NCBI RefSeq assembly: GCF_028867705.1
Contig: NZ_CP066171.1
Location: 496,001 to 560,000, forward strand
Source: Thermoleophilum album
Lineage (GTDB): Bacteria; Actinomycetota; Thermoleophilia; Solirubrobacterales; Thermoleophilaceae
Direction of reading: 5' to 3'
Length of the DNA stretch: 64,000 bases
This document shows positions 18,471 to 56,539 of this stretch, piece after piece (position 1 is the stretch's first letter; every line of letters begins with the position of its first letter). Position numbers and translations under genes: made by a program. Under the pieces are notes generated by a model. It saw only the letters and a program-made list of their open reading frames with translations, did no database searches and had not been told where the DNA came from.

Positions 18471-19927
18471 CCGCGCCTGGGCCTGTGATGCTCGCCGCTT
18501 TGCCGGCTCAGCACGTACGGCAGGGTGCGCGCGAGAATCTTGATGTCTTGCCAGAGCGACCAGCTCGCGCAGTAGCGATAGTCGATCGCCACCATCTCCT
18601 CGAGCGGCACCCTGCTCGAGCCGAGAATTTGCCACGGACCGGTGATCCCTGGCGCCACGACGTGTCGTGCGCGTTGCCACCCCTTGAAAAACCGGTCCTC
18701 TTCGGGGACGAGGGGGCGTGGTCCGACGAGGCTCATTTCGCCTCGCAAGACGTTCAAGAGCTGTGGCAGCTCGTCGAGCGAGTAGCAGCGCAGAAAGCGC
18801 CCAACCTTAGTTGTGCGGGGGTCATTTGCGATCTTGAAGAGTGGCTCGGCAGCCTGGTTGAGGTCCAGAAGGAGCGGCTTGAGACGGTCGGCGCCTTCGA
18901 CCATCGTTCGGAACTTGAGCATTTGAAATGGGCGCCCTTCCCGGCCGATGCGGATCTGACGGAAGAAGACCGGGCCGCGCGATGTGAGTTTGATCGCGAC
19001 GGCAATCACCAGCATCAGAGGAGCCAGCAAGAGCAGCAACAAACCCGCGACGGTAACGTCGAGGGCCCGTTTAGCGAGCAGGCCACCGCGTCCGGGCCCG
19101 AACTCGCGCAGAGCGATGAGTTCGATCCCGTCGAGTTCGTCTGCAACCGCCCCGACGCCGCTTGCAGCGGCCAGAGGCGCGAAAAGCTCCACGCGCACTC
19201 CGAGCGCATGGCAGTTGCGAACCACTTCTTCGGTCCGCGACAGACCGAGCGAGCGCGCGTCGACCAGAACTCGCTCGATATTCCATTCGGCGACGACGTC
19301 CGCAAGCTCGCTCACCTCGCCAAGCCAGCGGTCGTGTAGCACACGCTCATCGGTCGCAGGTCCAAGCCGTCCCAGCAGCACGAGCCGCGCCCGCTTGCTC
19401 GTACCGAGCTTGCGGCGCACAGCCGCAGACAAGGAGTCGGTACCGATCAAGAGCACGCGCTCTGGTGAGAGCGCACGGCCCATCGCCGCACGGGTGACGA
19501 ACCGCGCGACGACGATCGCCAGTGCCAGGTTTGCCCAGAGGATGAAGAGCTCGCTTCCGTGCCAAGCACCGAGCCCTGCCGCGTAAACGACAAGAACGCT
19601 CACGGCCGCAGCAGCCACTACTTGCGGCACTTCGTCGAGCGTTGGATGGGAGACCACGAGCGGCTCGCGCTTATACAGCCCCAGTGCCTTCAGGCATAGG
19701 AGGACGAGCGGAACGATCGCGACCGCGCTGGTCGCACCGTCCCCGAAGAGCAGCGCTGTTATCGAAAGCGCACTGGCCGCCGCCAGGGCGTCGGCAAGGG
19801 AGAGCGACGCGCGCAAAGCGAGAGCCCGCCGCTCGACGGGCGCACGAAGCCGTCCGCTCGGAAGCGCTACATCTTCCGTTCCGGTCGGCGTTGCCGTGGG
19901 GGCACGGGTGCCGATCGCATCGGTCAT
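18467..19927 (-). CDS. Polyprenyl-phosphate sugar-1-phosphate transferase (first of two)
   Basis: Initiating phosphoglycosyl transferase of the WbaP/WcaJ long monotopic type, 486 residues. Membrane helices lie at about 45-62, 68-84, 105-121 and 125-143; a Rossmann-like domain spans about 155-275; the catalytic bac_transf domain spans 284-480. Key motifs are KRALD (286-290), the re-entrant hydrophobic helix at 291-312, KFRTM (338-342), DELPQL (385-390) and VGPRP (401-405). It moves a hexose- or aminosugar-1-phosphate from a nucleotide sugar to undecaprenyl phosphate, starting repeat-unit synthesis. It lies in a minus-strand group with a glycosidase-like gene and a second transferase of the same kind. 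Confidence 0.93.
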   Translation of the reverse strand: MTDAIGTRAPTATPTGTEDVALPSGRLRAPVERRALALRASLSLADALAAASALSITALLFGDGATSAVAIVPLVLLCLKALGLYKREPLVVSHPTLDEVPQVVAAAAVSVLVVYAAGLGAWHGSELFILWANLALAIVVARFVTRAAMGRALSPERVLLIGTDSLSAAVRRKLGTSKRARLVLLGRLGPATDERVLHDRWLGEVSELADVVAEWNIERVLVDARSLGLSRTEEVVRNCHALGVRVELFAPLAAASGVGAVADELDGIELIALREFGPGRGGLLAKRALDVTVAGLLLLLLAPLMLVIAVAIKLTSRGPVFFRQIRIGREGRPFQMLKFRTMVEGADRLKPLLLDLNQAAEPLFKIANDPRTTKVGRFLRCYSLDELPQLLNVLRGEMSLVGPRPLVPEEDRFFKGWQRARHVVAPGITGPWQILGSSRVPLEEMVAIDYRYCASWSLWQDIKILARTLPYVLSRQSGEHHRPRRG

Positions 19928-21397: not shown

Positions 21398-22999
21398 CTA
21401 ATAGGCGCCGGCGCCACGGACGATGGCGGAAAACGTCCGTAGCAAGATCTGCAGGTCCTTCCGGAGCGTGTAGTTCTCGACATATTCGCGCTCGACTGCG
21501 AGGCGTTCCGCGAACGTCAGATCGCCACGCCCGTGGACCTGCATGGGCCCTGTCAGTCCCGGACGCATCAGCAGCCGGAAGCGCTCCGACTCCTTGTAGC
21601 GGTCGACGAGCCAGGTTTCCTCCGGGCGAGGACCGACCAGGCTCATGTCGCCACGCACGACGTTGATCAACTGCGGCAGCTCATCGATCGAGAGCCGCCG
21701 CAACCAGCGTCCGACGCGCGTTACGCGCGGGTCGTTGCGGATCTTGAACACCGGTTCGTCTAGTTCGTCGACGTCGATCAGCTCCTGCAGTCGTTCTTCG
21801 GCGTTGACGCACATGGTGCGGAACTTGAGCATCGTGAACGGCCGCCCGTTCTTGCCCGCGCGGCGCTGTCTGAACAGCACCGGCCCCGGCGAGTCGAGTT
21901 TGATGGCTACGGCGACAACCGCCATCAGCGGTGCGACGAGCAACAGCAACGCGCCGCCCACGGTCAAGTCGATGAGTCGCTTGAGCACCAAGGTCGACCG
22001 CGGGATCGGCCATGTCGCGTACTCGATCAGCGGCAGCTCAGCGACATGCGAGAGCTCGACCGCTGTGCCGAGCATTGTCGGCATCGGCGGAACCACGCTG
22101 AGCTTGCATCCCGACTGCCGGCAGGTGGCAACGACACGCGCGAGCGTTCCTTCGTCGATTTCCTGAGCGGCGATCACGATCCGCTCGATCTCGTACTTAT
22201 TCACCAAGTGGGTGAGATCGTCGACGGTCAATCCGCTCGCGACCACGTGCTTGCTGTCGGCGCCATCGCGCTTCTCGCTGCCGGCAACTGCGCGCGCCTC
22301 GGCGATCGCAGGCGCCCCGGTGTCGCTGCGGGCGAACATCTCGGTGGCGGCGACGTGGCTCTCGCTGCCGTTGGTTCCGTTGCGATCCCAGAGCTCTCCG
22401 TCGCCGATCACCGACCGCACCTGGGCTACGACATCCACGTTGTGGTGGGGTTCCAGCGCCAGCTTGCGGCGGACGCTGCTAGCGAGTGGGCCGTCGCCGA
22501 TCACGAGCGTCCGTTCGGCGCGCACTAGATGCCTCCACAGGGCGCGCGCTGCCGTTCGGGCGGGGAAGGCACCGCCCAGCGCCGCGAAGTACAACGCGAG
22601 CGCGCTCTCGACCCGGATCGTCTGCTCGGGAAGGCCACGCAACAGAAAGAGCGTCGCCGCCGCCGAGACCGTTACCCAGTGGAAGATGCGCGCCACTTCG
22701 TCGCTGGTGCGATGCCAGATCCGCGGATGGTCGCCGTCGTAGAGGCCCTCTAGCTTCGCCACGAGCGCCCAGAGCGGTGCAGTGGCGAGCGACCACAGGG
22801 GGTCCGTCGTACCTTCGATCAGCGTCGCTGTCGCAACCGCAACGAGGAAGACGGCCAAGTCGGCAGCAAAGAGCAGGACACGCCGCAGCGTGTCCTTGCG
22901 CGCCGACAGCGATTGGCGCGCATCCAGGCGGGTAGCGACCGGTAACTGTGGGGCACGGCCAGTCGCCCCCGCACGCGGAACTGTGGGGGCAGTTTCCAC
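21398..22999 (-). CDS. Polyprenyl-phosphate sugar-1-phosphate transferase (second of two)
   Basis: Second WbaP/WcaJ-type initiating transferase, 533 residues. It has four N-terminal helices (about 40-150), a nucleotide-binding-like domain and a C-terminal catalytic domain from KRLID (340-344), with KFRTM, DELPQL and VGPRP motifs intact. Compared with the first copy it has an extra polar insert of about 50 residues near 200-255 (GELWDRNGTN onwards), probably a linker. Two such enzymes in one island suggest two different first sugars or two separate glycans. It heads the minus-strand group that runs to 18467. Confidence 0.93.
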   Translation of the reverse strand: METAPTVPRAGATGRAPQLPVATRLDARQSLSARKDTLRRVLLFAADLAVFLVAVATATLIEGTTDPLWSLATAPLWALVAKLEGLYDGDHPRIWHRTSDEVARIFHWVTVSAAATLFLLRGLPEQTIRVESALALYFAALGGAFPARTAARALWRHLVRAERTLVIGDGPLASSVRRKLALEPHHNVDVVAQVRSVIGDGELWDRNGTNGSESHVAATEMFARSDTGAPAIAEARAVAGSEKRDGADSKHVVASGLTVDDLTHLVNKYEIERIVIAAQEIDEGTLARVVATCRQSGCKLSVVPPMPTMLGTAVELSHVAELPLIEYATWPIPRSTLVLKRLIDLTVGGALLLLVAPLMAVVAVAIKLDSPGPVLFRQRRAGKNGRPFTMLKFRTMCVNAEERLQELIDVDELDEPVFKIRNDPRVTRVGRWLRRLSIDELPQLINVVRGDMSLVGPRPEETWLVDRYKESERFRLLMRPGLTGPMQVHGRGDLTFAERLAVEREYVENYTLRKDLQILLRTFSAIVRGAGAY

Positions 23000-35069: not shown

Positions 35070-36647
35070 CTAGCACCTTTCTCCCGTCGAGCTTGCTCCA
35101 CGGACTCGTGCGGTGGTGGCGGTACGGGGCGAGCTGTTGCCTGGCGACAGCGGCACGGTGCGCGACGCCCCGCCGATCGGTGTCCGGTCGTGTCCGGGCC
35201 GGGCTTTCTCGGCCCACGCGAGTACTGCTGCACTGGCGAGCACGGCAGGCATCGTCGCTGCCGGTAGCTCCCAGTCCCAGTCGACACCTGCGTGTACCAG
35301 CCACGCTGAGATGACCGCTGCCGGCCCCACCGCGGCGGCTGGGTAGCAGCGAAGAGCGCCCATTGCACCGGCAACGACAGCGCCGAGAAACGCGACAAGG
35401 GCGGCGAGCCCTACCACGCCGAGCTCGGCGAGCGTTTCGAGGTAGAGCGAGTGGGCATCGGTGGCACGATCGGGGCGGTTGGGGCGCGCCCGCCAGGCAA
35501 CCGCAAAGCTGCCGGCGCCTTCGCCCCGCAGGGGCTCGCGCCGAGCCATCTCAACAGCTATCTCCCAGTACGCGTAGCGGTTCGTGTCGATCGAGCGCAG
35601 GCGCTCGGGAGTTGCGCCGCGCACCGGCGACTCTGCGGCGGGGCGGATGTCCGACGCCGCGACGGCGGCGATCCCGCCGGCGAGGGCGACGACCGCGGCC
35701 GACAGCACAATGGCAGCGCGCCGAACGGGCACGCTTTGGGCGCTTCCCCCAGCGGAGCGGCTCGGCGCAGCTACGAGCAGCGCGCACAGGGCTCCGAGCG
35801 CCAGCAGGACGAAGAGCATTTCGTGGCCCTCGCTCGGATTGCCGGTTACGCCGACGTCGAGCGAGCGCACCGTTGGCAGGCGGTTCGCGACCACTGCAGC
35901 GAGCACACTCGCACCGCCGCCGGCGACGAGCGCGGCAAGCTGCGCGCGAATGTGAGGGGCGAGCGCAGTGAGAACGACGATCCCCGCGGCCGCTGCTACG
36001 AGCCCGGCGCGGGAGAAGGTGAGGTACAGCGTCAGTCCCCATGCTGGCAGCGTTGCTCCTGCTAGTGCGCGCACAAGCCGCGAGCGCGTCACGTCACCGG
36101 CTATGCGTGCCGCAACGAGCCACGCCCACGCGGCGACGAGTCCCATACCGTTCCAGTACGTGAGTGGCTGCTCGAGACGGCCAGCAGCCGTCTGGCTGCG
36201 GTCGAGCTCGACAAGGTCGGGAACGAGCCGTTCGCTCAACCCGACAGCGCAGATCGTGCCGAGGCCAACGAGGAGTATCGGCTCGAACCAGACACGCGCC
36301 GTGCGCGAGCGCAAGCCAACGAGCGCGAGCGCAAGCAACCCGAGGTAGAGCACGGCGCGCTGGGCGTCGTCCTCGACTCTGCCGGCGATCGGGGCCCAAG
36401 CCAGCGACAGGAGCGTCCATCCCGAAAGTGCGGCAAGGCCAGCTACCGCAAGCACTTGCGCGCGTGTGCGCGGCCAGGGGCGCTCGGCGACGGCAAACGC
36501 GAGCGCGAGTGCTGCCCAAACCACAGCGCCCGCCACGAGGCGCGGTCGATCGAAAAAACCACCCGCGTAGAAGGCCGGGACGAACGAGCAGGCGACAGCT
36601 ACGGTCGCGGCAAGTGCAGTCGCAAAAACGCTCGCGATGCGCGGCAC
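35070..36647 (-). CDS. O-antigen ligase / Wzy-type polymerase membrane protein (second of its kind)
   Basis: Polytopic membrane protein of 525 residues with about 12 helices. The outside loop contains RLRSIDTNRYAYWEIAVEMA and GEGAGSFAVAWRARPNRPDRATDAHSLYLETLAELG, which is the diagnostic Wzy_C/O-antigen ligase segment. It is the first gene of the minus-strand operon running to 24624, which also ends in a Wzy-type polymerase. It may therefore be the ligase that moves finished glycan to its acceptor, with the downstream protein acting as polymerase; that split is inference. It is divergent from a small TPR-like membrane protein. Confidence 0.83.
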   Translation of the reverse strand: MPRIASVFATALAATVAVACSFVPAFYAGGFFDRPRLVAGAVVWAALALAFAVAERPWPRTRAQVLAVAGLAALSGWTLLSLAWAPIAGRVEDDAQRAVLYLGLLALALVGLRSRTARVWFEPILLVGLGTICAVGLSERLVPDLVELDRSQTAAGRLEQPLTYWNGMGLVAAWAWLVAARIAGDVTRSRLVRALAGATLPAWGLTLYLTFSRAGLVAAAAGIVVLTALAPHIRAQLAALVAGGGASVLAAVVANRLPTVRSLDVGVTGNPSEGHEMLFVLLALGALCALLVAAPSRSAGGSAQSVPVRRAAIVLSAAVVALAGGIAAVAASDIRPAAESPVRGATPERLRSIDTNRYAYWEIAVEMARREPLRGEGAGSFAVAWRARPNRPDRATDAHSLYLETLAELGVVGLAALVAFLGAVVAGAMGALRCYPAAAVGPAAVISAWLVHAGVDWDWELPAATMPAVLASAAVLAWAEKARPGHDRTPIGGASRTVPLSPGNSSPRTATTARVRGASSTGERC

Positions 36648-36781: not shown

Positions 36782-37285
36782 ATGACAGTGCGTACTCGCG
36801 TTGGATCGGCGGCCAAGGGGTTGTCGGTGCGTTCTCGAGCGCGCGTCCTTGGTGCCGCCATCGGGCGCGTAGTAGCCGTGCTTGCAGCGCTCGCTGTGAT
36901 GTCGTTGTTCGTGTTGGGCTCTGTTGCATCCCGTGCGGGCGAGGAGGCCGAGCGAACGGTCGAGAGGATCACGCGCGACGAGGTTGACCCGACTCCGGGC
37001 GTTGTCCGGCCGGCAATCGAAGACGCGCGACAGGCCGCTCGTTTCTCACTCGACCGGCAAGCCGACATGACGCTGGCCTCGCTCCTGCTGTTTAGCGGTG
37101 ACTTGGACGGCTCGTGGCGCCAGCTGCGCGAGGTCGTGCGGGAAGAACCCAGGAATGCCGACGCCGTCTACGCGCTGCTCTTCGTGTCCCGTGCGGTCGA
37201 TCGCGCAAGCGTTCCGAAGCTTCTGCAGAGACTGCGCCAGCTCGACCCCTACGCCTGGCGCATAGCCCGCGCCCAAGCCCCGTGA
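36782..37285 (+). CDS. Small single-helix membrane protein with TPR-like C-terminus
   Basis: A 167-residue protein. A membrane helix at about 28-50 (VVAVLAALAVMSLFVLGSVAS) precedes a helical outside domain with TPR-like repeats: ARQAARFSLDRQADMTLASLLLFSGDLDGSWRQLREVVREEP. Similar helical repeats are often fused to or encoded beside O-antigen ligases; here the ligase gene is divergent, 134 bases away. I chose ATG 36782; the longer open frame upstream is the shadow of the ligase gene. It overlaps the next gene by four bases (GTGA). Function unknown. Confidence 0.65.
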   Translation: MTVRTRVGSAAKGLSVRSRARVLGAAIGRVVAVLAALAVMSLFVLGSVASRAGEEAERTVERITRDEVDPTPGVVRPAIEDARQAARFSLDRQADMTLASLLLFSGDLDGSWRQLREVVREEPRNADAVYALLFVSRAVDRASVPKLLQRLRQLDPYAWRIARAQAP

Positions 37286-40047
37286 CGGCCGTCGATAGGA
37301 AACCCCCTGCCGCGTTCGAGGCCGGCCTCGACTACCCCCTACCGACGACGGTAGCCGTCGGCGGCGGCACGGCTGTTTTCGTCTGTGGCTGGTGCTTTTC
37401 GCGCCACAGTCCGATTCGCTGCGCCTGGCTTGAAGTCGACGGCGAAAGGCAGGAGCTCTTGGCGTTTCGCGCGCCTCGCCGCGACGTCCTCGAGCAGAAC
37501 CCCAGCGAGCCCCACGCCTACCGCAGCGGCTTTTGGGGGATCGCTCGCATCCGTCACCGTTCAGACCTCGACCAAGTCGAGCTCGCAGTGGCGGCAGAGC
37601 TCGTCGACGGCCGAACGGTCCGGCGCGTGCTTGCGACCGTGAGCGTCGACCGGCCCTGTATTGAGCCGGCTGCTTTCCCTTCCCCACACGCGGATGGCCG
37701 GCAACCGTTGGTGGCAATCGCGATGGCCACCTACGAACCTGACCGCGAGCTCTTTCGCGCCCAGATCGAATCGATCAGAGCCCAGACGCATCGGCACTGG
37801 ATCTGCGTGATCAGCGACGACCGCTCGTCCCCGGCGGGTCTGCAGACGATCCGCGAAGTGATTGGTGACGACCCGCGTTTCGTCGTCAGTGTTGCCCCCG
37901 AGCGGTTGCGCTTTTACCGCAACTTCGAACGCGCGCTTCAGCTTGTTCCGTCGCACGCCGATTTCGTCGCTCTCGCCGACCAGGACGATCGCTGGCGCCC
38001 CGACAAACTCGAGCGCCTACTCGGTGCGATCGGGAGTTGCGACCTCGTCTACAGCGATCAACGGATCGTCGACAGGTCGGGCGAGGAGATCGCTCCCACA
38101 TACTGGAACGTGCGCAGTAACGACCATGAAGATGTCGCGTCTCTCCTCTTTGCGAACTGCGTGACCGGTGCCGCTTCGCTGTTGCGCCGCGACCTTCTCG
38201 ACGTGGCCTTGCCGTTCCCGCCCCGCCAATTCGCCAACTTCCACGACCACTGGCTGGCGCTCGTGGCACGCCTGCGGCGCGGTGTGGCCTATGTTCCCGA
38301 CGCGCTCGGCGACTACGTGCAACACCGCTCAGCGGTTCTCGGGCACGGCAACGCCAACCGCATGCCAACCGTCGTCCAGCGTGTGCGCCGACTTCGCGAA
38401 GATCCGCGCCAACGACTGCACCGCTGGCGTCTGACGTACTTCGTCGACTGCTGTCGCCTACTCACGCTGCTCGCGATCCTCGAGCTGCGATTGGGCGATG
38501 CGCTCAGTTGGCGCGATCGCCGCCAGCTCGGCCGGTTCGCGCGTGCCGAACGCTCCCCGCTCGCGCTCGCCTGGCTGGCGCTAAGGGCTGTGCGCGAACT
38601 GCGTGGCCGGCCGCGAACCCTCGCTGCCGAACTCGGACTGTTGCTGGCGTACGTGTGGCGCTGGCTGGTGCGGCTCGTCCCCGGTCGCGCGGAGAAGCCG
38701 GGTCGATGGTTGCGTGTCGACGCGCGGCCGCCAGCGCGCCTCATCCAAGAGCCAGGGCGCCGTGACCTTCGCGACGCGCGTGCTGGAGCCCTGGCGGCGA
38801 AGATCGCGCCGCTCGACTTGGCGGTTTCGCAGCGCGAGCCGGAGCGCGTCAACATGCTGATTCCGCACGTCGATCTCAAGCACCTCTTTGGTGGTTACAT
38901 CACGAAGTTCCAGCTCGCGCTCGCTCTCGCCGAGCGCGGCTGGCGAGTGCGCATCGTCACTGTCGATCCGCAACCACCGCTGCCCGGCGACTGGCCTGCG
39001 CGGCTCGCGCGCTACTCGGGCCTCGAAGGTATCGATCGCGCCGTGGAGTTCTGTTTCGGACGCGAGAGCGAGGCGGTACCGGTCTCGCGCAACGATGCGT
39101 TCGTTGCAACTACTTGGTGGACGGCGCACGTCGCTCACGCGGCGCTGCGCGAGCTCGGGCGAGCAGAGTCCGGGTTTCTCTACTTGATCCAGGAGTACGA
39201 GCCGTTCACCTTCCCTATGGGAAGCTACGCGGCTCTCGCCGAACGGTCGTACACCTTTCCGCACGCGGCGCTCTTTTCCACCGAGCTGCTGTGCGACTTC
39301 TTCAGCGAACGGAAGATCGGAGTATTCGCCGAAGACCGCCCGGGGGGCGCACAGGCGGTGGTTTTCCGCAATGCGATTACTAACGTTGCGTCGCCCGACC
39401 CGGTGGAGTTGCGAGCACGTCGCCGGCGTCGGCTGCTCTTCTACGCGCGTCCAGAACCGCACGCGGCGCGCAACATGTACGAGCTGGGCGTCCTGGGCCT
39501 CGCCGAAGCGGCACGGCGCGGTGTCTTTTCCGGCGGCAAGTGGGAACTGAACGGAATCGGTTCGGTGGAGGGCGAACGCCGCCTGGAGCTTGCACCGGGA
39601 GTCGAACTCCGTGTTGGCTTGCGAACCGACCAGCGCAGTTACGCTGAGCTCCTGCGCTCGCACGACGTCGGCCTCGCCCTGATGCACACTCCTCACCCCA
39701 GCCTCGTGCCGATCGAGATGGCTGCTGCCGGATTGGTGGTCGTAACGAACACCTGGGGTCCGAAGACCGACGTCCGGCTACGCGCCATTTCGCCGAATCT
39801 GGTCGCCGCAGAGGCCGACGTAGGGGAGCTAGCGAGCGCCATCGCCACCGCCGTTGAGCTGTCATCGAACATCGAGGCGCGTGTCCGCGGCGCGCGAGCG
39901 GTCACCTGGCCACGCAGCCGCCAGGAAGCCTTCAACGACGAGGTGATGGAGAGGGTGGAGAGCCTGTTGCATTCCGTACGATCTACTGCTCCGGGTAGCG
40001 CAGATGGTGCGCAGGGGCTAACCGAGTTCACGACCGATCGCCGATGA
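37282..40047 (+). CDS. Large glycosyltransferase fusion: GT2 plus WsaF-like rhamnosyltransferase
   Basis: A 921-residue cytoplasmic protein. Residues 1-130 form a beta-rich domain I cannot name (CGWCFSRHSPIRCAWLEVDG). Residues about 141-400 are a GT2 domain (LVAIAMATYEPDRELFRAQI, DDRSSPAG, metal motif ADQDDRW at 232-238). A helical stretch follows to about 520. Residues about 522-900 match the WsaF-type GT-B rhamnosyltransferase seen in S-layer glycan clusters (VNMLIPHVDLKHLFGGYITK, YLIQEYEPFTFPMGSYAAL, LLFYARPEPHAARNMYELG). It could add two sugars in series, probably including rhamnose. It overlaps both neighbours by four bases, so three genes form one unit. Confidence 0.85.
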   Translation: MTAVDRKPPAAFEAGLDYPLPTTVAVGGGTAVFVCGWCFSRHSPIRCAWLEVDGERQELLAFRAPRRDVLEQNPSEPHAYRSGFWGIARIRHRSDLDQVELAVAAELVDGRTVRRVLATVSVDRPCIEPAAFPSPHADGRQPLVAIAMATYEPDRELFRAQIESIRAQTHRHWICVISDDRSSPAGLQTIREVIGDDPRFVVSVAPERLRFYRNFERALQLVPSHADFVALADQDDRWRPDKLERLLGAIGSCDLVYSDQRIVDRSGEEIAPTYWNVRSNDHEDVASLLFANCVTGAASLLRRDLLDVALPFPPRQFANFHDHWLALVARLRRGVAYVPDALGDYVQHRSAVLGHGNANRMPTVVQRVRRLREDPRQRLHRWRLTYFVDCCRLLTLLAILELRLGDALSWRDRRQLGRFARAERSPLALAWLALRAVRELRGRPRTLAAELGLLLAYVWRWLVRLVPGRAEKPGRWLRVDARPPARLIQEPGRRDLRDARAGALAAKIAPLDLAVSQREPERVNMLIPHVDLKHLFGGYITKFQLALALAERGWRVRIVTVDPQPPLPGDWPARLARYSGLEGIDRAVEFCFGRESEAVPVSRNDAFVATTWWTAHVAHAALRELGRAESGFLYLIQEYEPFTFPMGSYAALAERSYTFPHAALFSTELLCDFFSERKIGVFAEDRPGGAQAVVFRNAITNVASPDPVELRARRRRRLLFYARPEPHAARNMYELGVLGLAEAARRGVFSGGKWELNGIGSVEGERRLELAPGVELRVGLRTDQRSYAELLRSHDVGLALMHTPHPSLVPIEMAAAGLVVVTNTWGPKTDVRLRAISPNLVAAEADVGELASAIATAVELSSNIEARVRGARAVTWPRSRQEAFNDEVMERVESLLHSVRSTAPGSADGAQGLTEFTTDRR

Positions 40048-41384
40048 GCCCAGTGGAAGGTCAAGAAGGAGCCTTCGGGCAAGCTCGGGCAGAGGATGTC
40101 GCGGATGCCCTAGCGCTGGCTAGAGAAAAAGCGCTTGGAACAGCTGTCGGCGCGAGAGCAGACCTTGCCGCGCTGCGTCGAGCATATCTTGACCTTCTAA
40201 AACTAGCGATTTGTGACTTAGTTGGACCTACAACCCTGACGGTTTCCGGCACCGCACAGGGCACCGTTGTCGCGCGCGAATTACGCGGCCCACTACGTTC
40301 CCTAAGGATGATCGGGTTCGATTGGCCATACAATGCCCTTTCGATGGCGGGTTTGTTGCGCCTTGATGATCTCGAACAATGCGTCAAAACTATCGTGTCG
40401 GAAGATGTAGAAGGTGATCTGCTCGAGGCAGGTGTTTGGAGGGGGGGTGCTGCTCTCTTAATGCGAGCTGCGCTCGCTGCATACGGCGGCGATCAGCAGC
40501 GAACAGTCGTCCTCGCTGACTCGTTTCGAGGCTTCACGCGCGACGATCAAACGAATGTGAGAAGCGCAGACACCAATCATCACGGCCTAGAGCAAATATT
40601 GCGTGACTACGAGTTCTTGGCGGTTTCGCGGCCTGAGGTCGAGCAAACGCTTGCTCGTCTCGGATACAAGGAGGGATTCGAATTTATTGAGGGCTTCTTC
40701 GAAGACACGATGCAGTCTCTGAAGGGCGAGCGACGTTGGTCCCTTATCCGCCTTGACGGTGATACGTACTCGGCAACGCGAGCGTGTTTAGATGCCCTTT
40801 ACGACGATCTGGTAGACGGAGGCTTCGTAATAATCGATGATTATCGGTTTGTTGAGGAATGTCGGCGAGCGGTCGACGAGTTTCGCGAAAAGCGCGGGAT
40901 TAAGGATCCACTGGTCAGCGTCGACTGGACGTGCGTGCGTTGGCGGAAAGGCTCGGGCGCCAAACCGGCAGTACCCGACAGCGATTCGGTAACGGAGCAA
41001 AGCGCGCACGAGCGGCGTGCCGGTCGACCTGGTTCAGGAGTAAGTACAGAACACGTCGGTACCAATGACGATCTTGCCGAGATCCTTGACGACGAAGGCC
41101 GGGTCCGGCTCGCTCCGACGCCAGCGATCGCCACTGCCCGCGAGGCGGAGCTCGCAGAGCGTTTGCGTGGGCATGAAGAGTGGATTCGGGAGACTGAGGG
41201 TTGGCTCCGCGCTGCAGGGGATCGCGTGGCGTCCCTCACGGCCGAGGTGAACATGCTGCGCGAGCGTGTGGGAGCGCTTCAGCACGCGTGTGCGAGCTAC
41301 GAGAACTCGCTGAGCTGGCGTCTTACCCGTCCGCTACGTAAAGCAGCCTCCATCGTTCGCGGTCTCACCGGCAAGAAGAGGTAA
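40044..41384 (+). CDS. TylF-family sugar O-methyltransferase with coiled-coil C-terminus
   Basis: A 446-residue protein. Residues about 75-300 are a TylF/macrocin O-methyltransferase domain (PF05711): DLLEAGVWRGGAALLMRAAL for SAM binding, LADSFRGF, LIRLDGDTYSATRACLDALY and FVIIDDYRF for metal and substrate. A disordered linker (about 305-375) leads to a coiled coil at about 385-420 and the tail SLSWRLTRPLRK at 422-433. The protein would methylate a sugar hydroxyl. Coiled coil plus methyltransferase beside a Wzm/Wzt exporter recalls WbdD chain terminators, a proposal not proven here. Base composition is lower than in neighbours (30 of 60 G+C at 40561-40620), suggesting transfer. Confidence 0.85.
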   Translation: MSPVEGQEGAFGQARAEDVADALALAREKALGTAVGARADLAALRRAYLDLLKLAICDLVGPTTLTVSGTAQGTVVARELRGPLRSLRMIGFDWPYNALSMAGLLRLDDLEQCVKTIVSEDVEGDLLEAGVWRGGAALLMRAALAAYGGDQQRTVVLADSFRGFTRDDQTNVRSADTNHHGLEQILRDYEFLAVSRPEVEQTLARLGYKEGFEFIEGFFEDTMQSLKGERRWSLIRLDGDTYSATRACLDALYDDLVDGGFVIIDDYRFVEECRRAVDEFREKRGIKDPLVSVDWTCVRWRKGSGAKPAVPDSDSVTEQSAHERRAGRPGSGVSTEHVGTNDDLAEILDDEGRVRLAPTPAIATAREAELAERLRGHEEWIRETEGWLRAAGDRVASLTAEVNMLRERVGALQHACASYENSLSWRLTRPLRKAASIVRGLTGKKR

Positions 41385-41535
41385 AGGCGCCGATGGCCCG
41401 ACCGTAGACAGCTGCACAAAGTCGGGTAGGTGCGGCGCTGCGATAGCCCGCGTTCCTACAAGTCTCCTTCTGATCTGAAAGAAGCTAATGCTAGCGGATT
41501 GGAGGGTGGGCGGGCACTTGGTCAGCGTTCTTACC

Positions 41536-42474
41536 CTAAAGGCTTTCGGCGATTCGCGGTGCCTCACGGTTAAAAACCCGCACAGCAACGAACCCAAGCA
41601 GGAGCGTGAACCCGATTGAGACCGTAAGCGAAACCGCGCCGCCGGCAAGTTCGACGGGTGTAGGAGCGGTTGGATCGATCATCCAGACGCGAGCCATCTC
41701 AAGCACAGGCGCAAGAGGGTTGGCTTGCATGAAATGAGCGAGTGGTGTTGGAACGATCTCTGCCGGGTACAGAACTGGGCTCCCATAGAACAAGACAGTG
41801 CTGATTACTGACCAGATGATGGCAGTGTCGCGGAAGCGCGGGTAGAGAGATGCAAGAATCAGAGATACGCATGCAGTTATCCAGAACAGTACGATCACAA
41901 TCGGAATTAGACCGAGCCAGGTAAGCCGCGGCTTAAGGCCCCAGGCTAACATGAATGCGAAGACGACGATCATATTGAAAATGAGGGTGAACGTGGTCGT
42001 TAATACAACTGAGACGGGTATGATTGCGCGGGGGAATTCTGTTTTACGCACTATCGATTCTTGACTAACGATTGAGGTAACAGACATGGTTGTGGCTTCG
42101 GTAAAGAAGGTAAACAAAACGATGTTTAGCAAAAGCATTACGGGATAGTGGGGGACACCAGACCCAGCTCGGAAAACTTGGGTAAACACGGTGACGAGAA
42201 CGGAGAACATGAGCAAGGGCCTCATCACTGACCATACGTAGCCAAGGACGGTTCCATGGTAGGCTTTTTTGAAATCGTAAACAGCGAGCATCCAGAGCAA
42301 CTCGGCCGCTCGGGAAAAACCGCCACTGCCGAGTGCAGTCGGCCCACGAACCTCCCGAAGGCTCCGCGGAGTGGCTACCGTCTTATCCTCACTGGCGCTG
42401 TAGGCGTTTGAGGAATCGGCTGGATGTTCAGGGGAACGGATCAGGTTCGGAGAGTCGATTTGGTACCTATTCAT
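41536..42474 (-). CDS. wzm: ABC polysaccharide exporter, membrane subunit (Wzm type)
   Basis: ABC-2 type permease of 312 residues with six membrane helices, the usual size for Wzm/TagG proteins. A conserved stretch LLWMLAVYDFKKAYHGTVLGYVWSVMRPLL marks the start of the permease domain. With Wzt it would export completed polyprenyl-linked glycan to the outer face. It overlaps the Wzt gene by eight bases. G+C is low here (27 of 60 at 42001-42060), unlike the surrounding island, so this gene was probably acquired. It converges on the TylF gene with 151 bases between, which hold no gene. Confidence 0.9.
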   Translation of the reverse strand: MNRYQIDSPNLIRSPEHPADSSNAYSASEDKTVATPRSLREVRGPTALGSGGFSRAAELLWMLAVYDFKKAYHGTVLGYVWSVMRPLLMFSVLVTVFTQVFRAGSGVPHYPVMLLLNIVLFTFFTEATTMSVTSIVSQESIVRKTEFPRAIIPVSVVLTTTFTLIFNMIVVFAFMLAWGLKPRLTWLGLIPIVIVLFWITACVSLILASLYPRFRDTAIIWSVISTVLFYGSPVLYPAEIVPTPLAHFMQANPLAPVLEMARVWMIDPTAPTPVELAGGAVSLTVSIGFTLLLGFVAVRVFNREAPRIAESL

Positions 42475-43828
42475 GTGTGGGCTCGGATATCTGTGCCGAT
42501 CCTTCGGTCAGTTCGATCGATTTACGCGCATCGGCGGTGAGGTGCGTGCTCTGAGGGCTGTGCACTGTAGCTGAGTAAGAGCAATCAAGGTGCAACAGGG
42601 GGCCAGTAGGCGCCATTCCGAAGACGACGAATGAAAGCGCTGGAATGGCTTGAACGGCCAGTTCGTGTCGTCCTAGCTCTTCGGCGATCCATGCGGCAAG
42701 GCGGTAACGGCCCGGAGCTAAGACGTTCGGTGCGCGGAGTTCGAGTGTAACGTGCGTCCCGGGCTTCAAGCTGACGGAATTCGACGCGGGAGTGTTGTTT
42801 TGTGGCAAGCGCCATCGCGGCGTTTGGAGAAGCAAAATACCGTTCTCGGAAAACAGCTGAAAGCCGAACATAGGGTCACGGATGGGTGTCTCGATGCGAA
42901 GGACGACTCGGGCGTGAAGCGGATCGCCGAGCTCGAGGTTTCGCTGTTCTTGGCCCCGGCGTTCAAGCCACGCGCGAACTAGTGAGGCGTGAGACCGGAG
43001 CACAGCGATCTCGCCACCAGCGGTTTCGGTTGTGCCGGCGCCGGCAGGGGCGCCGTCGGTAGCGAGCTCGGGGGCGTCACTGCCCTCTCGTTGGAAGTTG
43101 ATCCTCAGATAGTGACGAGCGGCCTCGTCTGGGTCGCCGATGTAGACGAGCTCACCACGGTCGAGCACTAGTGCGCGGTCGCACATCGATTGCACGGTCA
43201 TCATGTCGTGAGTCACGAGTACGACTGTCTTGCCCGCGCGCTTGCGGGCGCGGAAGACATCCATGCACTTCTGGGCAAAGCCGGCGTCGCCGACTGCCAG
43301 TACCTCGTCGATCAGCATGATGTCGGCGTCCGCCTCGACCATGATCGCGAAGGCGAGACGCACCATCATTCCCGACGAGTAGTTCTTGACCTTCAGGTCG
43401 CGAAACTCGCCCAGCTCGGCGAAGTCGATAATCCGGTCGGCGCGTGCTCGCGCTTCGCGGCGTGTCAGTCCCATCAAGACGCCGTTGATCTCGATGTTCT
43501 CGTTTGCGGTGAACTCGGGGTTGAAGCCGACGCCGAGCTCGATAAAAGGGGCGACGCGGCCGGCTACGCGAACGCTGCCGCGGTCGGCCTTGTAGATGCT
43601 GGCCATGATCTTGAGCAGGGTGCTCTTCCCCGACCCGTTCTGGCCGACGATCCCGAAAAACTCGCCGTCGTAGACGTCGAAGGAGACGCCTTTGAGCGCC
43701 TCGAAAGTCCGGTACGAGACCCTTTGGAAGGGCCGGACTACGCGCTCCTTGAGCGTGTCGACGCGTTGTTCGGGTACACGGAACGTCTTCCAGACGTCCT
43801 CGACTTGGATGGCTATTGGGCGATTCAC
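42467..43828 (-). CDS. wzt: ABC polysaccharide exporter, ATPase with glycan-binding domain (Wzt type)
   Basis: A 453-residue ABC ATPase. Walker A GQNGSGKST lies near 62-70, signature YSSGMMVRLAFAIM near 152-165, Walker B DIMLIDEVLAVGD near 172-184 and the switch His in VLVTHD near 207-212. YSSGM in place of LSGGQ is usual for the Wzt/TagH branch. Residues about 270-430 form a beta-sandwich resembling the carbohydrate-binding domain of E. coli O8/O9a Wzt, which recognises the modified end of a finished chain. This implies export of a capped glycan. The C-terminal half is visibly lower in G+C than the ATPase half. Start is GTG 43828. Confidence 0.92.
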   Translation of the reverse strand: MNRPIAIQVEDVWKTFRVPEQRVDTLKERVVRPFQRVSYRTFEALKGVSFDVYDGEFFGIVGQNGSGKSTLLKIMASIYKADRGSVRVAGRVAPFIELGVGFNPEFTANENIEINGVLMGLTRREARARADRIIDFAELGEFRDLKVKNYSSGMMVRLAFAIMVEADADIMLIDEVLAVGDAGFAQKCMDVFRARKRAGKTVVLVTHDMMTVQSMCDRALVLDRGELVYIGDPDEAARHYLRINFQREGSDAPELATDGAPAGAGTTETAGGEIAVLRSHASLVRAWLERRGQEQRNLELGDPLHARVVLRIETPIRDPMFGFQLFSENGILLLQTPRWRLPQNNTPASNSVSLKPGTHVTLELRAPNVLAPGRYRLAAWIAEELGRHELAVQAIPALSFVVFGMAPTGPLLHLDCSYSATVHSPQSTHLTADARKSIELTEGSAQISEPTHE

Positions 43829-46781: not shown

Positions 46782-47834
46782 ATGATCGCGTTCGCCGTTT
46801 CGATCACGGACTGGTCTACCTACGAGCGCTGCGCCCGAAGGGGAATAAGGCGTGTCGCCGAGCCCGACTCCGTGATACTGGAGCGTCCGGCGACGGGCTC
46901 GATCTTCGATAGCTACAACGCCATCCTCGACGAAGCTGCCGAGCTCGCGGATCTCGAGGCGCTCGTCCTGCTCCACCAAGACACCGAGATTGTCGACGAG
47001 GACTTTTGCGCTCGTCTGCGCGGCGTACTGTCGTCCGATCCCGAGGTGGGCGTCGTGGGTTGCGTCGGTGCTCTCGACGTCCGCTCGATCGCGTGGTGGG
47101 AGGGGTCAGTGCGCTTGGCAGCCTTCCGGCACCGATATCCGGAGCACGGAGGCGGATTTCTCGACGGCTTTTCCTGGGACCACGCCACCGGTTCCCCGTA
47201 CTCGCGGGAAGGAGACGTGGAAACGGTCGACGGTTTCCTTCTCTGCCTCACCCCGCGGGTTGTGCGCGATATCCGCTTCGATCCCTCGATCGGTCGTTTC
47301 CACGGCTACGACTTCGATTTCTGTCTGCAGGTACGAGAGGCGGGAATGAAAGTGCGCGCGGTCGGATTTCGTGCCATACACCATCACTCGCTCAACCTGG
47401 TCTCGGATTTAGACGGTTGGGTCGAGGCGAACGTGGCAGTTGTCCGGAAGTGGTATGGCCGGATGCCTCGAGTGGGTGTCGGACCAGGGCGATGGCGTCA
47501 GCGCGCTCGGAGGGCAGCTGCCGAGCGGGACCTCGCGGTGGCGATGGGGTACTACTACGAACTCGACGCTATAGCGCGAGGTCAAGACCTTGAGCGAGCG
47601 ATTAAGAGTGCGTTGACAAGCATCGGGTGGCGACTGACGGGACCGCTACGAGCGACCAAGCACCTCGCGAATGTCATACGCGAAGCCTTCTCGCGCGGTG
47701 CGCCGCAGCGTGACCAGATTCCTGATGAGGAGGAGGGGGAGGGCCGTACAGCTGTGTCCCGAAGCTTGATAGGGGCAAGACCTGGGCGTCTCGCCGAAGC
47801 GGTCGGGGAGGGTGAAAAGACCGCGTCATCATGA
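46782..47834 (+). CDS. GT2-like glycosyltransferase with SWRLT-type tail (tandem copy 1)
   Basis: A 350-residue protein of the short GT2-like family (PF13712 type). The N-terminal half holds SIFDSYNAILDEAAELADLEALVLLHQDTEIVDEDF, where HQDT stands at the metal-motif position, then WWEGSV and FHGYDFDFCLQVREAGMKV for acceptor binding. The C-terminal part is helical and contains SIGWRLTGPLR at 280-290, related to tails on two other proteins here. It overlaps the next gene by four bases (ATGA); the two are paralogues. Sugar specificity is unknown. Confidence 0.82.
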   Translation: MIAFAVSITDWSTYERCARRGIRRVAEPDSVILERPATGSIFDSYNAILDEAAELADLEALVLLHQDTEIVDEDFCARLRGVLSSDPEVGVVGCVGALDVRSIAWWEGSVRLAAFRHRYPEHGGGFLDGFSWDHATGSPYSREGDVETVDGFLLCLTPRVVRDIRFDPSIGRFHGYDFDFCLQVREAGMKVRAVGFRAIHHHSLNLVSDLDGWVEANVAVVRKWYGRMPRVGVGPGRWRQRARRAAAERDLAVAMGYYYELDAIARGQDLERAIKSALTSIGWRLTGPLRATKHLANVIREAFSRGAPQRDQIPDEEEGEGRTAVSRSLIGARPGRLAEAVGEGEKTASS

Positions 47835-48775
47835 TCGCGTTTGGTTGCGTCGTCGAGGATCGTGTAGCTGTCGAGTACTACGCCGCTCCGGGCATCGAGC
47901 GCGCCGCGGAAGGGAACTCCGAGGTCCACCTGATCGGCGCGACGCGTAACCGCGCGCGCAACTGGAATCTCCTGCTCGACCTTGCCGCGCGAAACGACGC
48001 GCTGGAGGCGCTCGTGATCGTCCACCCGCACGCGCAAATCACCGACCCGAAACTCTGCCAGCGTATCCGCGCTCTGCTTGCGAGCGAGCCCGACGTAGCC
48101 GTCATGGGCGCCGCCGGGGCGCGCTGTCCGTCTTCGCCCGCTTGGTGGACAGGGACCGTGGTTTCAGCTGACGTACGGCTCCGCTACAAGGAGCACGGCG
48201 GCGGTGAGCTTCCCCGCTGGGTGCCCTTCGACCCCCTTCCCGCCCCTTCCGACGTGGATGTCGTCGAAGGCTCGCTGCTCGTTCTCTCGGCCTGGGCTGT
48301 TCGCACCCTTCGTTTCGACGAGCGACTGCCCGAAGGCCACGGTTGCGACGTCGACCTTTCCTTGCAGGCGCGCGCACACGGTAAGCGGGCGTGGGTGATC
48401 GACACCAGCGTGACGTTCCACGGTGGCCTCGAGCTGGTTGCCGAGGACGATTACGCCTGGCTCCAGGCACACGAGTTGCTCGCTGAGAAGTGGGAAGGTG
48501 CGTTCGGCGCTGACGGTCCGCTCGCGCCGGCGCCGGACACGCCGGAGCCTGGCGAGGCTGAAAACGACGAGGCCTGGCGGGACCGGGCGTGGCGGGCCGA
48601 GGCCGAGCGCGAAGCCGCCCGCTCGGCTGCACACACGCGCCAACTGCACGCCAACGCAGCCCTGCGCCCCCTAGAAGCGCAGCTGCAAGAGATCGAAAGA
48701 TCGCTCTCGTGGCGCTTGACGGAGCCGCTCCGGCGTCTCAACCACTGGCGCCGTCGCCGGCGAGTGCTCGCCTGA
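47831..48775 (+). CDS. GT2-like glycosyltransferase homologue with degenerate metal motif (tandem copy 2)
   Basis: A 314-residue paralogue of the previous protein (both begin MIAF and share LEALVxxHxxxxI, AWWxGxV, YxEHGGG and GxDxDxxLQxR). At the position of the metal motif the first copy has LLHQDTEI and this one has IVHPHAQI, so the key aspartate is missing. A coiled stretch near 245-290 leads to the C-terminal tail SLSWRLTEPLRRL at 291-303 and an Arg-rich end. It may be inactive or act as a partner of copy 1. The gene overlaps the convergent methyltransferase-like gene by 38 bases. Confidence 0.8.
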   Translation: MIAFGCVVEDRVAVEYYAAPGIERAAEGNSEVHLIGATRNRARNWNLLLDLAARNDALEALVIVHPHAQITDPKLCQRIRALLASEPDVAVMGAAGARCPSSPAWWTGTVVSADVRLRYKEHGGGELPRWVPFDPLPAPSDVDVVEGSLLVLSAWAVRTLRFDERLPEGHGCDVDLSLQARAHGKRAWVIDTSVTFHGGLELVAEDDYAWLQAHELLAEKWEGAFGADGPLAPAPDTPEPGEAENDEAWRDRAWRAEAEREAARSAAHTRQLHANAALRPLEAQLQEIERSLSWRLTEPLRRLNHWRRRRRVLA

Positions 48776-51692: not shown

Positions 51693-54119
51693 ATGCCCGA
51701 AGCCCCCGACACAGTTGCTAGTCCCGCCGCCCCCGAGCACGGCAAGCTCGCCACGGCCGGCGAACGCGGCGCTATCGGCCCGCCGCTGGCGCTCGACTTG
51801 GCGGCGACGCTGGTTTTGTTTGCGGGCTTTGCGGCCTTGCTCGTGCCGCTGGCGATCGCTGTGGTCGAGCCGCGCCCGATCGAAGGGTTACCGGGCTTTT
51901 CGCAGCGCCAGTACGCCGAGACAGCAACCTATGTCCTGCTCGTCGGCTGCGGGCTTCCTCTAGCTGTCGCCTTCGGCCCGCGCTGGGTGCTATTCCTGGC
52001 GCGCAAGAGCCGATCGAGCGCCTGGCTGGAGATCGCTGCCTGGGCCACGCTGCTGGCCGTTCCTGTGGTGGTCTTTCGGGCCTTGGCGACGCGGTCGGCC
52101 GGTGCCGAGCCCGGCTTACTCGCAGCCGGTATCGGAGCTTGGTGGCTGGCGTTTGCGGTGCGCTTGGTGTTGCTTGGGCGTAGGAGCAGCGCTGCGCTTG
52201 CACCCGCGCTCTCGCCGCCAGCGCCCAGTAGGCGCAGGCTCGTAGCGGTTGGTCTGGTGCTGCCGTGCTTTGTTTATCCGCTTCTGTTTGCGCGCAGCGG
52301 CGCTGTGCGCCCGCTGCCGATAGCGCTGGTCGCGTTCACGGCGGCAGCGTGGCTTTTCGCCGGCCGCGTGCGCAGGGCGACACGGCGCATCGCGAAGGAG
52401 CGTTGGCACCTTTTCGGGGAGCGAGCGCTTGCGAGACGAGCACTCGACGTCGCGGTGGTCGCCGTTCTGGCGGCGTTCGCCGTGAACATGGTCGTCTTTG
52501 AACCCGGCGCGCTCGATCGCCCGCTCGATCGGCGCATCTACGACTGGGTGGTTGCTTTCCACGCCAACTTCCTATTGGGACCGGCTAATCAGCTTGCCCA
52601 CGGCGGCACGATGCTGGTCGACACCGTCTCGCAGTACGGGGTCGGGTCGATCGTCGCCCTCTCGCGTGTAGTCGATCTGGTGAGTTCCGGCTACGGCGCT
52701 GTCGGCCTTTTCGACGGTCTGCTTACCTCTCTTGCGGTTGCGGCCGCGTGGCTGATCCTGCGTACGGCTCGGGTGCGCCTGTCGATCTGCATCTTGGCGC
52801 TGGCCTTCGTCGTTGTCGTGCTCCTGTGGGGGCGGACGTTCCCCGTCGGCACCATCGTGCAGGACGGTGCGTTTCGCACCGGCATCACCCCGTGGGTGAT
52901 CGTGGGTTGGCTAGTGAGCCGCCGCGCGCCAGCTGCCGGCAACGCGCTCGTGGCCGTCACCGTCGGCGTATCCGCCATCTGGTCGTTCGAGGTTTTCGCG
53001 CTCACATCGGTCACCTGGCTGGCGCTCGTAGCGGCCGAGACCTGGGCTGCGCCGGCGCGCGCTCGGCGGCGGGTCGTACGGCACGGTGTCCTGCTCTACG
53101 TCGCGCCGGCGCTGGTGGCGCACGCCCTCTTTGCGCTATGGACAGTGGTCAGGTCGGGACAGCTACCGGACTGGCGCCTATACGGCGACTTCCTGCGAGC
53201 GTTCTTCCTCGGGCAGCTTCGCGAGGTCACGTACGACTTCACGCGCTGGTCGCCAGGGATCGGGCTTGGTGGTGCCTATCTCGCGCAGGCCGCCGTGCTC
53301 GGGGTACTAGTCACGCGCCGGCCAACGTTGGCGCGCGACCTCGGTGAGCGCCTGCCGGTGCTGTGTGCGCTCGCGGTGTTCGGTCTCGCTTGCTTCTTTT
53401 ACCTCGTCGATCGCTCTCTTGACCACGTGGTGATCTACGTCGCGCAGCCACTCGTTCTCTCCTCAGCCCTCTGGCTCGACGAGCTTGTGCGCCGCAGCTT
53501 GTTCCAGGCGCGCTCGCTGCTCGCGGTAGCGATCGGTGCGTGGGGAGCGGTGGTAGTCGCGCTCGCTCTGTCGGCCGTGTGGCCGAAGGTGAAGCCCGCG
53601 GCGCGCGACACGCTGGCGTGGCAGGCAGTGCACGGGACGCAGCGCATCGTTGACCGCTGGCGGCGTCTTGGTGACTTTCCGCCCGTCGACCCCCAAGCCG
53701 AGAACGGCGCTGTACTCCTGCGCACCCACGTGCCGGGGTCGTCGGTGCTTGTCCTAATGCCTGCCGATCTTGCCGTCGAGACGCTCGCCCGCGCCGAGAA
53801 GCGCAACCGGTTGCCGCTTTCGTTCAGTCTCAGCGACAGCTTCATCGCGCAAGAGCAGGGAACGCGCATGCAGCGCCTCGTCGAGCGCGAGTTACGGCGC
53901 GTTCGCGATGGCGATGTGGCGTTGGTCGACTATGGGACTCTCGTGTTCATGCGCAGCGTGAGCGAGGGCCGTAAGTTGCAGCTGCCCAGATCGGTTTCCG
54001 TAGACACACTTCGGGTACGAGCGTTCCGCTACGTCGCGCGTAAGTTTCATCTAGAGCCGCTGCGGACCAGGGGTCAGGTGCTCCTCGTGCGCTTGCGTCG
54101 CAGTCGCTCCGTACGCTAG
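51693..54119 (+). CDS. Large polytopic membrane protein, possible GT-C glycosyltransferase
   Basis: An 808-residue protein with about 13-15 membrane helices in the first 630 residues and an outside C-terminal domain of about 170 residues. I do not recognise a named family. The segment AHGGTMLVDTVSQYGVGSIVAL near 305-326 and an acidic first-loop residue pattern (DRPLDRRIYDWVVAFHANFLL) recall GT-C enzymes. Neighbours are glycosyl- and methyltransferases, so a role in transferring a lipid-linked sugar is plausible but unproven. ATG 51693 follows a 224-base divergent gap. It ends at a converging gene with a hairpin terminator between them. Confidence 0.6.
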   Translation: MPEAPDTVASPAAPEHGKLATAGERGAIGPPLALDLAATLVLFAGFAALLVPLAIAVVEPRPIEGLPGFSQRQYAETATYVLLVGCGLPLAVAFGPRWVLFLARKSRSSAWLEIAAWATLLAVPVVVFRALATRSAGAEPGLLAAGIGAWWLAFAVRLVLLGRRSSAALAPALSPPAPSRRRLVAVGLVLPCFVYPLLFARSGAVRPLPIALVAFTAAAWLFAGRVRRATRRIAKERWHLFGERALARRALDVAVVAVLAAFAVNMVVFEPGALDRPLDRRIYDWVVAFHANFLLGPANQLAHGGTMLVDTVSQYGVGSIVALSRVVDLVSSGYGAVGLFDGLLTSLAVAAAWLILRTARVRLSICILALAFVVVVLLWGRTFPVGTIVQDGAFRTGITPWVIVGWLVSRRAPAAGNALVAVTVGVSAIWSFEVFALTSVTWLALVAAETWAAPARARRRVVRHGVLLYVAPALVAHALFALWTVVRSGQLPDWRLYGDFLRAFFLGQLREVTYDFTRWSPGIGLGGAYLAQAAVLGVLVTRRPTLARDLGERLPVLCALAVFGLACFFYLVDRSLDHVVIYVAQPLVLSSALWLDELVRRSLFQARSLLAVAIGAWGAVVVALALSAVWPKVKPAARDTLAWQAVHGTQRIVDRWRRLGDFPPVDPQAENGAVLLRTHVPGSSVLVLMPADLAVETLARAEKRNRLPLSFSLSDSFIAQEQGTRMQRLVERELRRVRDGDVALVDYGTLVFMRSVSEGRKLQLPRSVSVDTLRVRAFRYVARKFHLEPLRTRGQVLLVRLRRSRSVR

Positions 54120-55597: not shown

Positions 55598-56539
55598 CTA
55601 CGACGTACTGGTGTCTTGTTGCGTCTCCTTCGCGCGTTGCTCCTCGGCGTAGTAGTTCCAGTAGCCAGAGAAATCCTTGCGCGTGTAGGCGACGCTTGTC
55701 GGATCGTGGGACCAATTCCACTCGTCGAACGGGCCCAGGTAGTAACCGCCTAGTCCGACACCGCTGCCGGAACCGATAAGCCCAGGCGGTGTTCTCCCAA
55801 AGCGCCGTCGCCAATATTCCTCAGACCAGAAAAGAGCGCAGTAATCAGTTAAGACGAACTCATCAATGAACACATAGCCCTTATCGACTAGGTGCGGCCA
55901 TAGATTTGTGATGCAGTCGTCAAGACTGGCCTGCCAGTCGACATCAAGAAACATGAGGACGATTGGCTCTTTGTGGTGTGGAAGAGTGTCCTTGAACCAG
56001 CCCTTGCGGAACTCGCAACACTCAATCGCACCGTACCTCTCTACGTTTCGCTTCACGCGCTCAAGATCGACAGCGAGCATCCCTGTGGCTTCAGGTTTCG
56101 CATACAAATCTTCACCTTCAGGTGCGGGCAAGCCTTCGAATGAGTCGTAGACTATGAGGCGACGCCCCGTGGCTTGACAGGCCAGTGAGAGATTTGCCGT
56201 CGACCCGCCGTACCAGCATCCGCACTCCACGACGACCCCCTCAACCTCGGGCGGTATCTCAAACAGTTTGCTAGCCATGGCAAGGTGCGCCTTGTACGAT
56301 GTGCCGGTCATAATTTTGCGTGTGTTTCGCCACATCTTGTACGCGAGGATGATTCGCCGCCGCCAAGTAAGATTGTAAGCAGGATGAATTTTTGGGTTGA
56401 AGAGGAGCAAAAAGACGACAGTTGCCGGCCACGTAACGGTCGCCCATGATCGCGCAAGGAGAGTCCCGAGCTTGTCGCCAGTAGGTAGGCGGAGCACTCG
56501 CCAAGTCTTTCGTATGAGGGTTTTTAGTAGGCGAACCAT
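55598..56539 (-). CDS. TylF-family sugar O-methyltransferase (second copy)
   Basis: A 313-residue protein. A hydrophobic segment at about 33-48 may touch the membrane. The methyltransferase domain has VVVECGCWYGGSTANLSLA for SAM binding, IVYDSFEGLPAPEGED, VLMFLDVDWQASLDDCITNLW and VFIDEFVLTDY, which match TylF/macrocin O-methyltransferases and their metal ligands. It lacks the coiled-coil tail of the copy at 40044. ATG 56539 is preceded by AGGAAAGAG. G+C is about half (30 of 60 at 56281-56340), lower than the typical genes here, suggesting import. Confidence 0.85.
   Translation of the reverse strand: MVRLLKTLIRKTWRVLRLPTGDKLGTLLARSWATVTWPATVVFLLLFNPKIHPAYNLTWRRRIILAYKMWRNTRKIMTGTSYKAHLAMASKLFEIPPEVEGVVVECGCWYGGSTANLSLACQATGRRLIVYDSFEGLPAPEGEDLYAKPEATGMLAVDLERVKRNVERYGAIECCEFRKGWFKDTLPHHKEPIVLMFLDVDWQASLDDCITNLWPHLVDKGYVFIDEFVLTDYCALFWSEEYWRRRFGRTPPGLIGSGSGVGLGGYYLGPFDEWNWSHDPTSVAYTRKDFSGYWNYYAEEQRAKETQQDTSTS

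Follow-up and report, generated by a model that had tools for sequence, protein, structure and literature searches.

A 64,000-nucleotide stretch of Thermoleophilum album DNA (contig NZ_CP066171.1, positions 496,001 to 560,000; hereafter the window) encodes a TylF-family methyltransferase with a C-terminal coiled coil, here called the TylF-coil protein, whose gene converges on those of the exporter pair Wzm and Wzt. We lean towards the view that this locus is a polymerase-terminator glycan pathway of the ATP-binding cassette (ABC) type, with the TylF-coil protein as its terminator. The features observed are the protein domains, the coil, a post-coil motif shared with Escherichia coli WbdD, the fold of the carbohydrate-binding domain (CBD) of Wzt, a conserved gene order and an association of such coil-and-motif ends (tails) with CBD-type Wzt. 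The terminator reading is favored because heptads occur on tails with methyltransferase heads and not on those with GT2_5 glycosyltransferase heads, the motif is as in WbdD, and tails lie near genes for CBD-type Wzt. The three open reading frames (ORFs) on which an earlier sequence-only reading of the window was built, those of the TylF protein, Wzm and Wzt, are present as it described, and the central features of the locus are as follows.

37114..40047, plus strand: GT2 glycosyltransferase fused to WsaF N- and C-terminal domains, 977 residues (Pfam: WsaF_C 4e-38, WsaF_N 2.7e-20, Glycos_transf_2 8.2e-12); by sequence, a candidate rhamnosyltransferase or polymerase component
40044..41384, plus strand: TylF-coil protein, 446 residues (PF05711; orthologue in a congener, genome G396, 54% identical over 431 residues)
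40296..40949, plus strand: TylF methyltransferase domain, residues 85–302 (PF05711, E 9.6e-66; nearest folds NovP, MycF, SpnH)
41133..41306, plus strand: heptad coiled coil, about residues 364–421, within a predicted helix at 360–443 (heptad test and AlphaFold)
41307..41339, plus strand: WbdD-type post-coil motif SLSWRLTRPLR, residues 422–432, then a short basic end (sequence)
41536..42474, minus strand: Wzm, ABC exporter permease (PF01061, E 3e-18)
42467..43828, minus strand: Wzt, ATPase subunit with C-terminal CBD (ABC_tran 1.1e-20, Wzt_C 3.3e-9)
42599..43000, minus strand: Wzt CBD, about residues 277–410 (all-beta model, Foldseek, VIA)

The GT2-WsaF gene and the TylF gene that follows it share 4 bases and are therefore probably co-transcribed, with wzt-wzm convergent to them on the opposite strand. 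RNA folding of the stretch between the convergent tylF and wzm genes was barely above that of shuffled sequences (z -2.1). In the pathway that we propose, the chain would grow on a lipid carrier in the cytoplasm, with the WsaF-type and GT2_5 glycosyltransferases as its probable builders, while the TylF-coil protein would oligomerize via its coiled coil and dock at the membrane or the polymerase via the S-x-S-W-R-x-T-x-P-L-R motif and the basic end. The TylF head would methylate a hydroxyl of the non-reducing terminal sugar when the chain reaches its active site, at which point growth would stop, and the Wzt CBD would recognize the finished chain for export through Wzm. Terminal methylation, the measurement or control of length, docking and cap recognition are the steps that we infer. 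If the scheme is true, the ruler-and-cap logic of WbdD reaches an actinobacterium with an unrelated methyltransferase, a short sequence signature becomes available for spotting terminators in genomes, and swapping coils or changing their length would offer a test of length control in the ABC-exported glycans of Gram-positive lineages.

The TylF-coil protein and the carbohydrate-binding domain of Wzt

The head of the TylF-coil protein belongs to the TylF family (222.1 bits for PF05711 against a curated cut-off of 23), residues D238, D240, D265 and D266 are invariant across a 32-sequence alignment, and the nearest folds listed above are all sugar O-methyltransferases. An AlphaFold model built on a 32-sequence alignment predicts, after a confident methyltransferase, a linker (disordered at 313–346) and then a single continuous helix at residues 360–443 whose pLDDT is mostly 72–86. 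The heptad pattern exceeded that of shuffled sequence both in the window protein (p ~0.004) and in its congener orthologue (p ~0.002), and the same test on WbdD of E. coli O8 and O9 gave p values of 0.002–0.010. Model and heptad test together thus put a predicted coiled coil on the C-terminal side of the catalytic domain, and Pfam, heptad test and AlphaFold agree with the sequence-only reading on a TylF methyltransferase that ends in a coil and converges on Wzm/Wzt. That reading had placed the coil at about residues 385–420; the coil is real, but its extent is greater (helix 360–443, heptads ~364–421) and the motif at the terminus had been missed.

The TylF-coil protein ends NSLSWRLTRPLR, in which the helix closes with SLSWRLTRPLR and a basic stretch. 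For comparison we used the E. coli O9 locus from HS and the O8 locus from IAI1. The coil of O8 WbdD ends NSRSWRITQPLR, with the motif SRSWRITQPLR, and that of O9 WbdD ends RSRSWRMTKGYR, a weaker motif that keeps S-x-S-W-R-x-T; among the ORFs of three E. coli stretches, only these two proteins carry the motif. We found no earlier description of the S-x-S-W-R-x-T-x-P-L-R motif in the literature searched, which took in few subscription papers.

Wzt combines ABC_tran with Wzt_C (PF14524, 37.3 bits against a cut-off of 30.4), and its C-terminal domain, modeled alone (mean pLDDT 68.7, core strands ~85–90), is all beta in the model. The top 16 Foldseek matches to this domain were all Wzt structures, and the best VIA match, where rows differing by 1 or less count as ties, was the Aquifex aeolicus Wzt CBD bound to 3-O-methyl-mannose (Z 11.5, root-mean-square deviation 5.1, 121 residues). 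A profile search with the domain also found the A. aeolicus CBD (E 9.6e-18), although a direct phmmer search of it against PDB sequences gave no match. Sequence profile and model therefore both indicate a true Wzt CBD fold, so that the expectation of a glycan-binding domain held up in the structure check that had been proposed for it. As regards architecture, the locus has a candidate terminator on a coiled coil together with wzm and a CBD-type wzt. The same genome has a second wzt/wzm pair (G000:C1:1899164-1901273; 54% and 44% identity to the window pair), the Wzt of which is not matched by Wzt_C.

Distribution of the tails and what they carry

The sequence-only reading had named consistent co-occurrence of TylF-coil proteins with CBD-type Wzt as support, which the survey could not show: coil-bearing TylF turned up in just two genomes, this one and that of the congener, both of one genus and with the same gene order, and the proposed survey was for that reason too sparse to decide. 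A tail was present on 0 of 100 related TylF ORFs elsewhere. The search for related loci used an alignment as query, a single-protein query having given no match, and a tail profile from alignment A2 was run against 151 genomes of the order. Tail matches were found in 68 of these genomes and Wzt_C above its cut-off in 101, and 54 of the 103 tail matches compared were 20 kb or less from Wzt_C. Within ten well-assembled genomes this distance was kept by 17 of 21 tails versus 30 of the 150 GT2 matches listed (odds ratio 17, p 6e-8), counts that are not independent because tails cluster in genomes and the ten genomes were picked as tail-holders. Among 77 separately fetched TylF loci from many organisms, Wzt was present in four of the six with a tail versus five of the 71 others. 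Genome-level co-occurrence of tails and Wzt_C across the phylum, tallied by hand, was weak, with p 0.01 when tails were called at E 1e-5 and 0.05 at E 1e-3. The link between tail and Wzt is thus strong around this genome and suggestive beyond it. Of the WbdD-like module that had been proposed, the CBD fold and the coil stand, and the O8-type motif, which that reading had not seen, and the clustering of tails with CBD-type Wzt add support; the co-occurrence of TylF-coil proteins is not supported as stated. Neither of the two results named beforehand as refuting the module, a Wzt C-terminal region of another fold or TylF-coil proteins linked mostly to Wzx/Wzy loci, was observed.

Two other markers were tried and rejected, namely TylF alone, for which 9 of 52 matches in the order were 20 kb or less from Wzt_C, and a Wzy_C search as a discriminator, since 150 of the 151 genomes have one. 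In several genomes of the phylum TylF and Wzt_C are far apart or on separate contigs. A distant phylum genome has a tail-less TylF gene convergent with a Wzt_C gene, as in the window (L084, G382:C17:95500-115000).

By phmmer or Pfam assignment, most of the heads joined to tails are GT2_5 glycosyltransferases or MT11/MT24 methyltransferases; TylF and sulfotransferases account for two each, and other glycosyltransferases for a few more. Heptads were significant in 20 of 32 methyltransferase-headed tails versus 0 of 27 GT2_5-headed tails (p 1e-7, which overstates independence because the GT2_5 proteins are mutually related); each distinct protein with an assigned head was counted, and one with no proline-free window was scored as a failure. 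This split fits terminators with a stalk as against glycosyltransferases with a dock only. In the two sulfotransferases (L253:8381-9670, minus strand; L276:5675-6592, plus strand) the domain is followed by the tail motif and heptads are not significant. A 1373-residue protein (L152:4135-8253, minus strand) joins Methyltransf_24, a coil with SWRLTEPLR, two GT2 domains and one GT4 domain, and resembles fused terminators of the literature.

What gives us most pause is that tails may serve for docking in general and that the methyltransferase may modify residues within the chain. We regard it as rather unlikely, if far from negligible, that the TylF-coil protein decorates internal or side-chain residues as an ordinary sugar O-methyltransferase, with coil and motif serving as a general anchor to the membrane or to partner enzymes, and a number of observations weigh on that side. 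The motif is also on glycosyltransferases (including two neighbors in the locus, which end in it), sulfotransferases, a PIG-L protein, GT4-like proteins and headless short proteins, so that motif and coil are not methyltransferase-specific, and GT4-like tails have heptads in 3/3. Wzt or Wzm was seen in 40 of 76 tail loci; neither was seen in 19 that had 17 kb or more of sequence, and 17 were on shorter stretches. Tail-less TylF genes adjoin tail-bearing genes in other genera: in G441, G461 and G450, a coil-less TylF lies 1.4–2.4 kb from a tail match (GT2_5 by phmmer) and within ~11 kb of a Wzt_C, and this recurrence of TylF with the tail on a separate protein fits a capping or a decorating TylF alike. 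The window locus itself contributes further difficulties. The coil of the TylF-coil protein is short, and only 18 residues follow SLSWRLT, versus 110 in O9 and 111 in O8 WbdD, so that the WbdD-like C-terminal region (membrane/polymerase-recruiting) is missing; the motif of the congener is degenerate (GALGRRITRRLR); the TylF gene shares its strand with the GT2-WsaF gene and not with wzm/wzt; and three further methyltransferase genes lie nearby (48738, 49775 and 55598). In Wzt, the pocket residues N313, H350, H355 and W362 of A. aeolicus correspond to P, A, R and a gap in a low-identity alignment, in which N, H, H and W are all present in O8 Wzt; 3-O-methyl-mannose as ligand is therefore not supported, though the fold is that of a cap reader. 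However, a mere anchor does not predict heptads on many methyltransferases and none on GT2_5 proteins, and tails are tied to CBD-type Wzt far more than GT2 genes overall.

Headless candidates with a coil and the S-x-S-W-R-x-T-x-P-L-R motif, ~75–115 residues by eye, immediately follow wzm in several genomes of the order (C-terminal ORF parts in L250, L274, L243, L251, L214, L256 and L259, with out-of-frame sequence trimmed by eye). Such proteins speak for coil and motif being a scaffold of an exporter-polymerase complex, with no ruler role and an incidental head, an explanation to which we give very little credence since methyltransferase heads often retain heptads, GT2_5 heads do not, and both TylF orthologues retain the coil. 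Keeping to the terminator reading, we tentatively suggest a wider one, which we hold with less confidence: from E. coli WbdD to Actinomycetota, the motif-ended coil would be an exchangeable chassis for the terminators of ABC-exported glycans and bear unrelated heads (TylF and other methyltransferases, and possibly also sulfotransferases and GT4-like proteins), GT2_5 proteins using only the docking motif and headless forms standing beside wzm. These headless forms might be a docking component of the machinery in their own right.

Conservation of the locus and neighboring genes

From PhyH through to Wzy, gene order is fully kept in the congener, with identities of 66% for GT2-WsaF, 54% for the TylF-coil protein, 64% for Wzt and 72% for Wzm. 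Further features of the window that bear on the locus are listed here.

16595-18187: Wzz-type protein
35070-36647: Wzy_C protein
46782..47834, plus strand: Glyco_tranf_2_5 glycosyltransferase ending in SIGWRLTGPLR, heptad coil absent (Pfam and heptad test)
47831..48775, plus strand: paralogous Glyco_tranf_2_5-type protein ending in SLSWRLTEPLR, heptad coil absent (sequence and heptad test)

The Wzy_C and Wzz-type proteins, together with candidate flippases in the window, raise the prospect that the TylF-coil protein serves a Wzx/Wzy-type pathway encoded alongside and that its adjacency to wzm/wzt is chance, as does the Wzy_C gene adjoining GT2-WsaF in the congener as well. We consider this improbable, given that the order of Wzt, Wzm and the TylF-coil protein is kept in the congener at the above identities, that tails in the order favor Wzt_C neighborhoods, and that the Wzy_C family includes ligases too.

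Several other genes of the window are recorded as observations. A second TylF (55598-56539, minus strand) is without coil or tail, and two Bac_transf initiating transferases are present (18467-19927, and 21398-22999 on the minus strand). An 808-residue protein (51693-54119, plus strand) has no Pfam match and a congener counterpart that is 42% identical. Near the cluster, a LytR-CpsA-Psr protein (61618-63288, plus strand) is a candidate for attachment of the glycan to the wall.

Comparison with known systems

The closest counterpart is WbdD of E. coli O8, which is similar in length (425 residues versus 446) and likewise has a methyltransferase head, a heptad coil and a near-identical post-coil motif, with a CBD-bearing wzt adjoining. 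It differs in its methyltransferase family, and in the window the TylF-coil gene is convergent, not collinear, with wzm/wzt. The head of O8 WbdD matched MT11-type tail proteins of the order weakly (~1e-8, phmmer) and not TylF, and phmmer searches with the O8 and O9 WbdD heads gave no match to TylF-coil proteins at E 1e-4, in line with the unrelated methyltransferase family that the first reading had assumed. WbdD of E. coli O9/O9a, a kinase-methyltransferase (PMC3482155), shares the S-x-S-W-R-x-T coil end and a locus with CBD-type Wzt, but the window protein is without the kinase, the C-terminal coil region of O9 is much longer, and O9 lacks the P-L-R that closes the motif. The TylF-coil protein is not a WbdD by family, as both the methyltransferase head family and the long post-coil region were tested and neither was found.

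The TylF/MycF, NovP and SpnH enzymes share the catalytic domain family and fold, but their substrates are the sugars of small natural products, and the chains solved, of 250–283 residues, have no coil. Among Gram-positive systems, the S-layer glycan of Geobacillus stearothermophilus combines Wzm/Wzt export, a WsaF-type glycosyltransferase and, according to a review, a 2-O-methyl cap (PMC2943079), and so resembles the window in its exporter, WsaF-type enzyme and O-methylation; there, however, WsaE is a methyltransferase fused to two glycosyltransferases, and a TylF-coil protein is not described. On the reading side, binding of a methyl cap by a Wzt CBD has been described, and the A. aeolicus residues that hold 3-O-methyl-mannose have been reported (PMC9445017). 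A coiled coil is a characteristic marker of terminators in ABC-dependent assembly, and in Klebsiella pneumoniae O4 ORF7 and O7 ORF6 terminator heads of varying families likewise sit on coiled coils in ABC pathways, although these heads are Kdo transferases or methyltransferase-kinases and not TylF (PMC11231755). Our best reading is that the TylF-coil protein is a further variant of these coiled-coil terminators, WbdD-like in its working and not by family.

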